In this document: positions 46,541 to 49,713 of the stretch, piece by piece
Layout: each line of letters starts with the position of its first letter
How positions within the stretch are numbered: the stretch's first letter is position 1
Source of the DNA: an uncultured Croceitalea sp.
GTDB lineage: Bacteria; Bacteroidota; Bacteroidia; Flavobacteriales; Flavobacteriaceae
Length of the DNA stretch: 64,000 nt
Direction of reading: 5' to 3'
NCBI GenBank assembly: GCA_947503285.1
Contig: CANNDD010000002.1
Coordinates: 558,001-622,000 of the forward strand
Program-made: the position numbers and the translations under genes
The notes under the pieces: model-generated
Seen by the model: only the letters and a program-made list of their open reading frames with translations
What the model was told of the DNA's origin: nothing
Databases searched by the model: none

Positions 46541-47149
46541 ATGGCTTTTGAATTGCCCAAACTTCCTTATGCATATGACGCATTGGAACCACATATTGAT
46601 GCGAGGACTATGGAGATACACCATACAAAACATCACAACGGATATACCTCAAAGTTAAATGCCGCGATTGAGGGATCTGATTTGGAAGGAAAAGATATTT
46701 TAGAGATACTGTCGGGGATGGATATGTCTAACGGAGCGGTAAGAAACAATGGGGGTGGATTTTATAATCACAGTTTATTCTGGGAAGTGATGTCTCCCGA
46801 TGGTGGGGGAGAACCAACGGGTGAATTGGCAGATGCGATAAACAGTGCTTTTGGATCTTTTGAGGGCTTTATGGAGAAGTTCAGTGCCGCAGCCGGAACC
46901 CGTTTCGGTTCTGGATGGGCTTGGTTATGCGTAAATAAGGAAGGGGCATTGGAAATTTGCTCGACACCGAATCAAGATAACCCGCTAATGCCAGGGGTTG
47001 GATGTGAAGGAACCCCAATTCTCGGTCTAGATGTTTGGGAGCATGCCTACTACCTAAATTATCAAAATAGAAGGCCAGACTATGTCAAAGCATTTTTTAG
47101 TGTCATAAACTGGGATAAGGTAGCGGATAACTATACTTCAAATAAGTAA
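46541..47149 (+). CDS. Superoxide dismutase [Mn/Fe]
   Basis: A 202-residue cytoplasmic superoxide dismutase. N-terminal [32 protein letters not shown] has the first His ligand (HTKHH), [13 protein letters not shown] the second, and [15 protein letters not shown] the Asp and last His. The [11 protein letters not shown] form fits Mn- or cambialistic enzymes; metal cannot be decided from sequence. A strong terminator follows at 47176. Confidence 0.92.
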
Positions 47150-47175
47150 GAAAGACCTTTTTAACGTAAGAATTT

Positions 47176-47203
47176 AAACGCAACCTATAGGGTTGCGTTT
47201 TTT
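47176..47203 (+). terminator. Terminator of the sodB gene
   Basis: AAACGCAACC pairs with GGTTGCGTTT (10 bp, 4-base loop) and is followed by a run of T. It is 27 bases after the stop codon. Confidence 0.88.
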
Positions 47204-47228
47204 GTTTTAAGGCTAAAAATACAAATAG

Positions 47229-47298
47229 AAAAGGGTGGGGAAGTCCCCACCCTTTTCGTCCCAAATCTTACCATAAACTTAACCTACTTATGCTATGG
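47229..47298 (-). ncRNA. Tandem small RNA candidate, copy 1
   Basis: On the minus strand the unit starts with CCATAGCATAAGTAGGTT (block 47260-47298) and ends in a hairpin (47229-47256) with stem AAAAGGGTGGGG/CCCCACCCTTTT and T residues at its 3' end. The block differs from copies 2 and 3 at one base (TTATGG for TCATGG). A promoter with both elements lies upstream. No coding potential. Predicted RNA is about 70 nt. Confidence 0.72.
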
Positions 47299-47303
47299 CA
47301 AAA

Positions 47304-47334
47304 CTAAATTACTGGTATTGTGGGAAATAACAAA
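47304..47334 (-). promoter_or_regulatory. Promoter of small RNA copy 1
   Basis: Minus strand: TTTG (47331-47334) then 19 bases then TAATTTAG (47304-47311). TTTG-N19-TAnnTTNG fits the Bacteroidota consensus, and the conserved RNA block begins 5 bases after the -7 box, where transcription should start. Confidence 0.65.
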
Positions 47335-47422
47335 GAAATATTAAGAATTTTTTGAGGTAGAAAAAAGCAGATATCATTAAAATCCAACCTTCAAGAAAGA
47401 TAATAGCTTGGTATTCAAATAT

Positions 47423-47492
47423 AAAGAAGGCGGAACAATGTCCGCCTTCTTTCCCCAAATCTTACCATGAACTTAACCTACTTATGCTATGG
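47423..47492 (-). ncRNA. Tandem small RNA candidate, copy 2
   Basis: The same 39-base block (47454-47492) followed on the minus strand by a hairpin (47423-47452), a perfect 12-bp stem AAAGAAGGCGGA/TCCGCCTTCTTT with a 6-base loop. The stem sequence differs from copies 1 and 3 but pairing is kept. No coding potential. Confidence 0.72.
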
Positions 47493-47497
47493 TTCTC

Positions 47498-47528
47498 CAA
47501 ATGTATTCCAAGCCATGACAATGAGAAA
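47498..47528 (-). promoter_or_regulatory. Promoter of small RNA copy 2
   Basis: Minus strand: TACATTTG (47498-47505), a perfect TAnnTTTG box, 5 bases before the conserved block, with TTTC (for TTTG) 19 bases further upstream at 47525-47528. Confidence 0.65.
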
Positions 47529-47641
47529 AGCTTTTAGATGAAAACCCTGTAATTAGGTTAAACTGCCTTTTGATTTCAAATGGATTATAAAAGCTAAGGA
47601 AAATAAGTACAAACCGTGAAGAAACCGTGTAGGCGTAAAAT

Positions 47642-47712
47642 AAAAAAGGTGGAGAAGTCTCCACCTTTTTTGCCCCAAATCTTACCATGAACTTAACCTA
47701 CTTATGCTATGG
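47642..47712 (-). ncRNA. Tandem small RNA candidate, copy 3
   Basis: Third copy of the conserved block (47674-47712) followed on the minus strand by a hairpin (47642-47671) with stem AAAAAAGGTGGAG/CTCCACCTTTTTT and the loop ACTT as in copy 1. The units are spaced 194 and 220 bases apart and the DNA between them is unrelated. Confidence 0.72.
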
Positions 47713-47718
47713 CAAGCA

Positions 47719-47726
47719 CTAATTTA
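47719..47726 (-). promoter_or_regulatory. -7 box of small RNA copy 3
   Basis: Minus strand: TAAATTAG (one base from TAnnTTTG) 6 bases before the conserved block. No clear TTTG is found 19 bases upstream, so this promoter may be weaker. Confidence 0.5.
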
Positions 47727-47748
47727 ACTTGCTGAACCCTTGAATATT

Positions 47749-47769
47749 TAAAAAGACGGTAAAGTACCG
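47749..47769 (-). terminator. Terminator of the purF-like gene
   Basis: CGGTA (47757-47761) pairs with TACCG (47765-47769) with a 3-base loop, and on the minus strand the stem is followed by TCTTTTT. It separates the purF-like transcript from small RNA copy 3. Confidence 0.55.
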
Positions 47770-47814
47770 GTTTCATCGATGAAATACACAATTTGAGGGT
47801 CTAATTGTTAAATT

Positions 47815-49713
47815 CTAGTAGGCCCGTTCGTTTTTACCCTCGTAAAAATTAATAAATGCCCTATTGACGACCCTATTTCCGCCAGGCGTGGGATAATCAC
47901 CCGTAAAATACCAATCCCCAAGGTTTTTAGGACAAGCTTTGTGCAAATTCTCAATGGTTTGGTATATGATCTCGACTTTTGCCCCAATGTCTTTAGGGCT
48001 TAGAAGCTCCCCTATTTTCTTCGAGATGGTTTCAGGGCTAAAAGGTTCATACAGTTCTTTGACGTAGTTTACAACGTCGGTATCTTTAGAGTTTACCTGT
48101 CTCAGGCACTTTTCATAAATATCCTTGATAAGGTATTCGGTATCATTTTCTTTGTGAAGCGCCAATGCAGCTTTGAAAGCAACAAAATCTTCCAATTTGG
48201 CCATATCAATACCGTAACAATCAGGATATCTGATTTGGGGTGCAGAGGAAACTACGATTATCTTTTTCGGATTCAACCTATCGAGCATACGAAGGATGCT
48301 GCGTTTCAACGTGGTGCCCCGAACGATGCTATCATCAATGATAACTAGGTTATCGTCAGGGTTGACCGAACCATATGAAATGTCATAGACGTGGGCGACC
48401 AAATCATCACGGCTACTATCTTGTGTAATAAAGGTTCTTAGTTTGGCATCTTTTATGGCCACCTTCTCAATTCTTGGCCGAACATCCAGTATTTTATGTA
48501 GTTCTTCTTTCGTAATGTTGGGCCCCAGCGCTAAAATTTGCGCTTCTTTTTTGTTGTTAAGGTAATTTTGCGCTTCTCTTACCATACCCAAAAAAGAGGT
48601 TTCGGCGGTATTCGGGATATATGAAAAAACGGAATGGCTCAAATCATCATCAATGGCTTTTAAGATTTCAGGAAAAACCAATTTCCCCAACATTTTACGT
48701 TCTTGATAGATTTCTTTATCACTGCCCCTTGAAAAGTATATGCGCTCGAAAGAGCAAGCTTTTCGTTCGGTTGGTTGCAATATCTCTTCAAACGACACCT
48801 TGCCATTTTTTTTGATGACGATGGCATTGCCCGGGTCAAGCTCTTTGATGTCATCGTACCTTACATTGAACACTGTTTGGATCACGGGTCGTTCTGAGGC
48901 TACCACTACTATTTCATCATCCTTATAATAGTAACTTGGCCTAATACCCGCAGGATCTCGCAATAAAAAGGCATCACCATGGCCCAAAAGACCACCCATT
49001 GCATAACCGCCATCCCAGTTTTTTGCCGCCTTGCGCAACACTTTGGCTACATTAAGTCTTTCTGCAATAAGGGGTGACGCTTCCCTTTTATTAAATCCTT
49101 CTTTTTTAATTTGCTTGTAGAGTTTTGCTACGGCATCATCTAAAAAATGCCCGATTTTCTCCATTACGGTGATGGTATCGGCCATTTCTTTCGGGTGTTG
49201 CCCCAGCGCGATCAAATTACCGAAAAGCTCGTCGACATTGGTCATATTAAAGTTGCCCGCGACGATGAGATTACGATGCATCCAGTTGTTTTGCCTTAAA
49301 AAGGGATGTACACTTTCAATACTGTTCTTGCCAAACGTACCGTAACGAACATGCCCTAGAAGGAGTTCCCCAATGTATGGAATCTCCTTTTTTTGTCGTG
49401 CTACGTCATTTTTCAAATCGGGATCTTCAATAATGGCCGTATTGATGCGGTCATTGATCTGTTTAAATATGTCTTGAATAGGTTGCTGTTGACTTGAACG
49501 AACCCGGCTCATATAACGTTCACCGGGGTTCATGTCTAATTTAATGCTGGCAAAACCCGCACCGTCTTGTCCACGGTTGTGTTGTTTTTCCATCATTAGG
49601 TACATTTTGTTTACCCCGTAGAACGCAGAGCCGTATTTCTCTTTGTAATATTCAAGGGGTTTCAACAAACGAATCAGTGAGATTCCGCATTCGTGCTTAA
49701 TAGCATCACTCAT
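47815..49713 (-). CDS. Amidophosphoribosyltransferase-like protein
   Basis: A 632-residue protein with an N-terminal class II glutamine amidotransferase domain (nucleophile Cys9 in HECGISLIRL after a short propeptide; RGQDGAGFASIKL; LLGHVRYGTFG). The C-terminal phosphoribosyltransferase domain has PRPP loop LVIIDDSIVRGTTLKRSILRML. It is about 130 residues longer than classical PurF and represents the larger flavobacterial form. It would transfer ammonia from glutamine to PRPP in purine synthesis. It lies downstream of the PfkB-type kinase gene on the same strand (42-base gap). Confidence 0.82.
   Translation of the reverse strand: MSDAIKHECGISLIRLLKPLEYYKEKYGSAFYGVNKMYLMMEKQHNRGQDGAGFASIKLDMNPGERYMSRVRSSQQQPIQDIFKQINDRINTAIIEDPDLKNDVARQKKEIPYIGELLLGHVRYGTFGKNSIESVHPFLRQNNWMHRNLIVAGNFNMTNVDELFGNLIALGQHPKEMADTITVMEKIGHFLDDAVAKLYKQIKKEGFNKREASPLIAERLNVAKVLRKAAKNWDGGYAMGGLLGHGDAFLLRDPAGIRPSYYYKDDEIVVVASERPVIQTVFNVRYDDIKELDPGNAIVIKKNGKVSFEEILQPTERKACSFERIYFSRGSDKEIYQERKMLGKLVFPEILKAIDDDLSHSVFSYIPNTAETSFLGMVREAQNYLNNKKEAQILALGPNITKEELHKILDVRPRIEKVAIKDAKLRTFITQDSSRDDLVAHVYDISYGSVNPDDNLVIIDDSIVRGTTLKRSILRMLDRLNPKKIIVVSSAPQIRYPDCYGIDMAKLEDFVAFKAALALHKENDTEYLIKDIYEKCLRQVNSKDTDVVNYVKELYEPFSPETISKKIGELLSPKDIGAKVEIIYQTIENLHKACPKNLGDWYFTGDYPTPGGNRVVNRAFINFYEGKNERAY

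Follow-up and report, generated by a model that had tools for sequence, protein, structure and literature searches.

A probable family of sibling small RNAs between purF and sodB of Flavobacteriaceae, with complementarity to start codons of mostly exported proteins

The intergenic region between sodB and purF in an uncultured Croceitalea sp. raises the question of what its three short, nearly identical minus-strand units represent; that is, whether they are a DNA repeat or a set of sibling small RNAs (sRNAs) and, in the latter case, how such RNAs would act. The region lies within a stretch of 64,000 nucleotides (the window; GenBank assembly GCA_947503285.1, contig CANNDD010000002.1, positions 558,001 to 622,000), to which the coordinates below refer. 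A sequence-only reading had proposed three RNAs of about 70 nt, members of one family with a conserved 5′ part that could meet mRNAs. On the basis of the computational analysis reported here, we consider it probable that the array encodes sibling trans-acting sRNAs, present throughout the Flavobacteriaceae, that block translation initiation of mostly exported proteins. To our knowledge, RNA-based regulation in this family is little described.

Array structure, distribution and placement

Unit A (47640–47712, about 71 nt), the first after purF, unit B in the middle (47423–47492, about 70 nt) and unit C nearest sodB (47228–47298, about 71 nt) each comprise a 39-nt block followed by a terminator hairpin. 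On the minus strand, the first position of the block is 47712 in unit A, 47492 in unit B and 47298 in unit C, and 38 of 39 positions are identical in the three copies; the single deviating base, which the sequence-only reading had counted correctly, is C, C and T in units A, B and C within TTCATGG, giving unit C the variant TTTATGG, which it carries together with a GGGA tail. The −7 box of unit A (TAAATTAG, 47719–47726, minus strand) ends 6 nt before its block, and the boxes of unit B (TACATTTG, 47498–47505, minus strand) and unit C (TAATTTAG, 47304–47311, minus strand, within a conserved upstream stretch, TTTGTTATTTCCCACAATACCAGTAATTTAGT) end 5 nt before theirs, in agreement with the 5 or 6 bases first proposed. 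The available text of PMC9723704 gives TAnnTTTG as the sigma-A consensus in Flavobacterium. The TTTG and TTTC reported for two copies were found again 19 nt upstream of the boxes, at the units starting at 47298 and 47492, respectively. A perfect hairpin with a T run closes every unit (fold z = −3.69, −3.46 and −4.81 for A, B and C), and the DNA between the units hardly aligns, as had also been seen. Across the 4.34-Mb genome, the block has three matches at up to three mismatches, all in the array, and its reversed pattern has none. ARAGORN and Rfam at gathering score reported within the window only a tRNA, elsewhere than the array.

The same architecture recurs in 305 distinct units; where a locus was fetched with a 21-nt core of the block, this core is exact by construction. 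A TAnnTT[TCA]G box precedes the block by 5 nt in 182 of them. Conservation at the 5′ edge of the block is 96–99%, apart from one G/A position at 71%, and falls to 31–48% at 15–20 nt upstream. A mismatch-free stem of at least 11 bp follows the block in 304 of the 305 units, compared with 1 of 305 when the downstream DNA was shuffled. The terminators comprise 222 different hairpin sequences and yet keep the stem, so the terminator is conserved as a structure and the block as a sequence.

Relatives bearing the same block, which the sequence-only reading had named as potential support, are widespread. Our sample of Flavobacteriaceae comprised 199 genomes from 198 genera, 165 of which are of good quality. 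The block at up to three mismatches occurs in 72 of the 199. A covariance model derived from 63 units (R1) extends this to 171 of the 199 and to 147 of the 165 good-quality genomes; E is below 1 × 10−5 in 163 of the 199, and 8 of the 171 matches are weak, with E above 1 × 10−3. Units A, B and C score 91.5, 84.4 and 83.6 bits with R1, values to be read with the fact that A and B are themselves part of the model. Among 247 genomes from across the phylum, 24 match, 23 of them Flavobacteriaceae and one a weak match in another family; this run and that over the 199 family genomes were both done with stricter search filters. The extra-family match (G209, 33 bits) lies on the strand opposite to a coding gene, across its first codons, and was rejected as chance. 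A scan of named genomes, including Zobellia, Maribacter, Robiginitalea, Winogradskyella, Aquimarina, Flavobacterium and Flagellimonas, added at least 118 stretches. Viral contigs contained no exact match to the 21-nt core; the sole match to the complement, inside a 334-aa open reading frame (ORF) of a viral contig, was taken as chance.

The placement between sodB and purF, described correctly at the outset, is also maintained. In the window, purF (47815–49713, minus strand) is the upstream neighbour on the strand of the units and sodB (46541–47149, plus strand) the convergent downstream neighbour. We pooled 148 loci from the window's own genome, the 199-genome search and the named-genome scan, with a few genomes present in both collections; in this count, in which flanks are partly cut by stretch ends, 144 loci have at least one of the two genes nearby. 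At up to 3 kb from a unit, both genes occur in 106 loci, purF only in 26, sodB only in 12 and neither in 4 (purF in 132 and sodB in 118 overall). In two loci with neither gene (L044 and L097), one flank is absent and the expected gene was not found on the other side; at L035 and L070, units occur without purF or sodB in the 8 kb examined. Orientation is constant: all 296 unit–purF match pairs are on the same strand and all 277 unit–sodB pairs on opposite strands. Loci hold one to six units. One locus (L234:2400–3400 in genome G399) has five units about 242 bp apart and looks like a recent expansion of the tandem array.

Complementarity to start codons in target leaders

RNAalifold predicts a 5′ hairpin with the loop GUAGG (consensus energy −1.99 kcal/mol, covariation term −0.19). 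Its variation consists of a G-U pair replaced by A-U in 22 of 63 units, a variable bulged base and one pair changed on both sides; the consensus energy is small, and support for the fold comes from this variation sitting where it is tolerated (the G-U/A-U swap and the bulge). The predicted fold leaves two segments exposed, the hairpin loop GUAGG and the linker GAUUUGGGG. Because a small hairpin takes up much of the block, the original proposal is to be refined: comparative evidence supports one family of RNAs of about 70 nt with a conserved 5′ part for mRNAs, and two likely seeds, loop and linker, take the place of a single open 5′ seed. Both lie in the block of unit A (47674–47712, minus strand), the loop within CAUAAGUAGGU and the linker as GAUUUGGG. 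The 303 units that could be classed divide into 168 of type AB, 85 of type D and 50 of type C; the linker is GGUAAGAUUUGGGG in types AB and C, and one base shorter, GGUAGAUUUGGGG, in type D.

The starting clue to targets came from a genome with the genus label g128, probably Flavobacterium (G340), in which the second place matched by R1 is not an sRNA but falls on the opposite strand of a CAP-domain lipoprotein gene, over its leader and start codon. This leader is a nearly full-length complement of the block (−45.6 kcal/mol with a D-type RNA of generic sequence and −48.4 kcal/mol with the native RNA). The RNA of genus g128 has an A-to-U change in its seed, which the leader seen in G340 follows. 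In the window's own genome (G000), two near matches of TTAACCTACTTATG lie at lipoprotein gene starts. From these cases, we tested the pattern ACCTACTTATGAA. Such leaders hold complements of both exposed segments, CCUAC for the loop and CCCAAAUC for the linker, and CCUACUU runs into the AUG.

Over the 199 genomes, nearly all of other genera, ACCTACTTATGAA has 112 matches, compared with 40 for the reversed pattern and 40 for a permutation that preserves the ATG. We read 30 loci per pattern, which were the first returned, one per genome, rather than a random sample; simple ORF rules served to call gene starts, and a crude rule to recognize signal peptides. Starts of ORFs of at least 60 aa account for 16 of the 30 ACCTACTTATGAA loci and 1 of the 30 permuted loci (Fisher P = 2.3 × 10−5), and 15 compared with none are signal-peptide-like. 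The 28 genomes without an R1 match hold 7 of the 112 matches, and signal-peptide starts were seen in none of the 4 loci read from them, compared with 15 of the 26 from other genomes. The second arm, CAAATC, is present in 7 of 19 start leaders (ORFs of at least 29 aa; 10 of 19 in a looser form), in none of 11 other matches, in 1 of 30 permuted loci (2 of 30 in the looser form) and, as background, in 10 of 376 leaders of G000 and 6 of 300 of G340; these seven leaders form three orthologue groups and are therefore not seven independent events.

A two-arm pattern, CCAAATN{3,24}CCTACTN{1,6}ATG, was then applied to 20 genomes, with array copies set aside. In nine genomes (the window's own, seven of its genus and G001), it gave 30 matches compared with 9 for the reversed pattern; array copies were seen in eight of these nine, the ninth (G446) being 54% complete. 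In the 11 genomes where the RNA was not found, the counts were 13 and 13. Clear gene starts, from six gene families, make up 17 of 28 matches read in the array-genome set and none of 11 read in the genomes without the RNA found, where three matches are ATGs inside longer frames (62, 129 and 507 codons upstream). Two features expected of sibling sRNAs can be read from the sequence: a stand-alone gene with its own promoter and intrinsic terminator, and short seed complementarity to several unlinked mRNAs that is kept in orthologues.

The two-arm genes of the window's own genome are C4:46483, C5:96810 and C3:239663. The first encodes a 147-aa protein with a CxxC start and no signal peptide, the most consistent predicted target (L247, L344, L306 and L386), the leader of which has both arms in nine genomes (G000, G176, G443, G445, G446, G447, G448, G001 and G026). 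The leader of a lipoprotein of about 122 aa has both arms in seven (G000, G176, G444, G445, G448, G086 and G120), and a CAP lipoprotein target is common to G034, G125, G155 and G340 (Pfam PF00188, from runs on two of these proteins). Pfam and NCBIfam gave no match for the CxxC protein (L344) or the lipoprotein of about 122 aa. The arms themselves are kept, at a spacing that ranges from 3 to more than 20 nt. In D-type genomes, the leader sequence is CAAATCTA or AATCTAC, and pairing is stronger with D than with AB RNA in five of five cases, four of which are CAP orthologues. The target leader is also carried by genes for proteins of 29–42 aa with similar ends (..YLAKKVFLLM and ..YLTKKLFML) at L282, L286 and L281 (G101, G156 and G107).

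Energy screens with RNAduplex covered about 9–10% of the leaders of each of two genomes, namely 376 from the own genome and 300 from G340, and gave a modest excess over shuffled RNAs for the own RNA. At −20 kcal/mol or below, 71 own leaders were found compared with 36.5 in shuffled controls, and none of 30 shuffles reached 71. The top two own leaders belong to the CxxC gene and the gene for the lipoprotein of about 122 aa (−34.0 and −31.2 kcal/mol), and the top G340 leader is that of the CAP gene (−48.4 kcal/mol). A search for enriched leader K-mers was dropped, as the invariant ATG and the TAnnTTTG box confounded it.

Several results weigh against start-codon pairing by this family. At −24 kcal/mol or below, 14 own leaders compare with 7.3 shuffled, and 3 of 30 shuffles reach 14; with longer leaders, the excess in the own genome is within the shuffle range. 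Own leaders show an excess with the G340 RNA too (9 compared with 3.0), and G340 leaders show one with the window's RNA (9 compared with 2.1) and, bar one site, none with their native RNA (1 compared with 0.8); as the excess also appears with a non-native RNA, the bulk energy signal is not specific. The motif TTAACCTACTTATG at up to two mismatches shows no enrichment in the own genome (28 matches outside the array compared with 97 for the reversed pattern), and it was rejected as a target motif: the window contains 12 matches, three of them the array, a number reached in 14 of 100 shuffles, and the genome is likewise unenriched. Many of the two-arm matches are orthologues within one genus, the own genome yields only three clear targets, and a mis-spaced pattern, CAAATCN{2,20}ACCTACTNNATG, gave 9 matches (one an array copy) compared with 6 reversed. 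In AB-type genomes, the preference is mixed, with 7 of 13 targets favouring AB over D. Finally, evidence from covariation is thin, as the block is nearly invariant.

Taken with these reservations, start-codon pairing by sibling sRNAs suggests the following course. Each RNA would start at or beside the CCATAGC block, fold the 5′ hairpin with loop GUAGG and end at the intrinsic terminator, and the linker GAUUUGGGG would stay single-stranded. The exposed parts of the RNA are those mirrored in the leaders; on the simplest reading, loop and linker would nucleate pairing with the leader motifs CCUAC(UU) and CCCAAAUC. The small 5′ hairpin would then open and a duplex over CCUACUUAUG would hide the start codon, which fits translational repression; with the initiation site covered, translation of a small set of proteins would be blocked. 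Predicted targets are mostly exported (small lipoproteins, CAP-domain lipoproteins and secreted proteins), with the addition of the 147-aa CxxC protein. We infer that the units are transcribed, that the pairing takes place in cells and that it represses rather than activates.

A different role for real RNAs is conceivable, in which they mainly bind, and titrate, a protein, and in which a protein or the ribosome recognizes the start-codon matches as a translation element. The extreme conservation of the block, the tandem copies and an energy screen that is not specific to the native RNA would all fit such a role. We nevertheless judge it unlikely, as the leaders carry the complement of the block and not a copy, the two-arm pattern is enriched in RNA-bearing genomes and not in those where the RNA was not found, and leaders of the D lineage fit the D-type RNA in five of five cases. 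More improbable still is that pairing at the start codon activates or stabilizes the targets. Deletion of the sRNA Rfp18 does lower two protease mRNAs in Flavobacterium psychrophilum (PMC9723704, accessible part); here, however, the AUG itself lies within the predicted duplex, as is usual in repression, and FopS, an sRNA of Bacteroides, acts in this way on susC (PMC11697453, accessible part).

Paralogue types and candidate upstream control

Type C, represented in the window by the copy at 47298, is the last copy in many loci. The GGGA tail occurs in 50 of the 303 classed units, and in many loci read, the type has its own conserved upstream stretch (47304–47340 in the window) together with the C-to-T mark; TTTGTTAT lies upstream of 27 of the 50 C-type units. 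On these sequence marks, the array copies are not interchangeable and the 47298 copy is a distinct paralogue type. As type C has its own upstream sequence and is the last copy in many loci, the paralogues are probably old and differently controlled. Diverged units (GTAAGTAGGTTAGGTCTATGG) stand beside a standard unit in two genomes related to each other (L005:1495–1566 and L065:3963), and in the former an A-U pair of the hairpin is changed to G-C on both sides.

A candidate activator site that may be of LytTR type lies upstream of unit A (47757–47787, minus strand), where GTATTTCATCG and GTACTTTACCG stand 20 bp apart, and a single half-site, TTTCATCTAAAAG, lies upstream of unit B (47531–47543, minus strand). 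Double elements of this kind (CATTTCATCTAAAA repeated 19–20 bp apart) occur upstream of 24 of 168 AB, 16 of 85 D and 1 of 50 C units, compared with an expectation of about 0.002 per unit for a motif that was written after viewing the upstream regions. They also occur upstream of 8 of 9 CxxC target genes and 9 of 20 target genes overall, compared with 3 of 364 genes sampled from the own genome as background, one of the three being the CxxC gene; all six genes tested for the lipoprotein of about 122 aa lack them. The available portion of PMC4847170 describes LytTR sites as repeats of 9–11 nt with 11–13 nt between; YpdB, a regulator of this type in Escherichia coli, recognizes GGCATTTCAT as a direct repeat. 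The double element, with half-sites CATTTCATC, is a candidate LytTR site of slightly short spacing.

Two intergenic stretches, at approximately L313:1500–1570 (G120:C5) and L310:1500–1570 (G050:C29), hold the complement of the block directly followed by a terminator-like hairpin. Their duplex energies are −46.3 and −44.0 kcal/mol, respectively, and among the loci examined GTTAACATACAAAAA lies upstream of these two only. They are candidate sponge RNAs for this family.

Tentatively, these elements could form a feed-forward circuit, which we consider possible although doubtful. In such a circuit, the RNAs would use kissing-loop and linker seeds, a LytTR-type regulator (YpdB-like half-sites, CATTTCAT) would drive the A/B- and D-type copies together with the 147-aa CxxC gene, the C copy would answer another signal, and some genomes would add a sponge RNA (L310 and L313).

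Relation to known RNA families and meaning

No family in Rfam 15 matches the units. At permissive E-values, all Rfam matches are under their gathering scores, and those shown as alignments depend largely on terminators or on hairpins like them. Flavo-1, a flavobacterial noncoding element mentioned in the accessible part of PMC9723704 and singled out by the sequence-only reading for comparison, has no match in the window at gathering score, nor in 47150–47815 at E ≤ 10. No description of this RNA was recognized in the literature searched, which largely lacked subscription papers and supplements; occurrences of one RNA sequence string in that literature concern Candida and were discarded.

The closest parallel in kind is FopS (RF04319) of Bacteroides thetaiotaomicron, described in the available text of PMC11697453 as having 14 copies, a single-stranded 5′ seed and SusC-type targets, and as pairing near the start codon of susC and envelope-protein mRNAs. 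Shared with it are multicopy paralogues, a conserved 5′ part with a 3′ terminator, and pairing around the target start codon, which here is predicted from sequence only. A further mark of FopS is binding by the RRM protein RbpB. The present RNAs differ in having one to six units per locus in one array, seeds in loop and linker, and leaders of lipoprotein and secreted-protein genes as partners. Membership in FopS was rejected, as the covariance score of unit A (23.1 bits) is far under the gathering score of 56 and none of 39 relatives exceeds the cut-off. That the family instead shares an ancestor with Bacteroides FopS/GibS, from which it would have diverged as a branch, has little probability in our view: the FopS model does align over its full length to unit A, matching CAU.G.AU.AG and UUAAG.U.A, and layout, start-codon mode and multiple copies are alike, but Salmonella STnc40 scores higher (31.8 bits), through its terminator. 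In the own genome, the sole FopS match at E ≤ 1 lies outside the array (G000:C2:473505), in a search that scored 94 of 707 candidates and perhaps left the array unscored.

Rfp18 of F. psychrophilum is likewise a conserved flavobacterial sRNA predicted to pair with secreted-protein mRNAs, and differs in pairing through a third stem-loop, the RNA here having two hairpins; the same study (PMC9723704) has 85 new Rfp sequences, one of which may be this RNA. LhrC of Listeria and Qrr of Vibrio also have several similar copies with shared seeds (PMC11697453, accessible part), a likeness for which we claim no sequence relation. Sibling sRNAs that pair at start codons are known as a kind, and this family is unmatched in Rfam 15.

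Hardly credible, despite near-identical tandem copies, is that the units are a DNA repeat, a mobile element or short coding genes: the plain dispersed repeat that the sequence-only reading had set against its own proposal is contradicted by the absence of further genomic copies at up to three mismatches, by the lack of exact core matches in viral contigs and by a kept position with variable intervening DNA, in which promoter box and terminator travel with the block, and any reading frame would be shifted by the one-base deletion of type D and by the differing tails.

The array likely represents a core sRNA of the Flavobacteriaceae, for which position is conserved, paralogue types are distinguished, candidate targets are named and a mode of pairing is predicted, and a new Rfam family could be made from the loci collected. 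If the reading is true, the theme of sibling sRNAs that pair at start codons would reach beyond Bacteroides into a second large branch of the phylum, with sequence kinship between the two undemonstrated.
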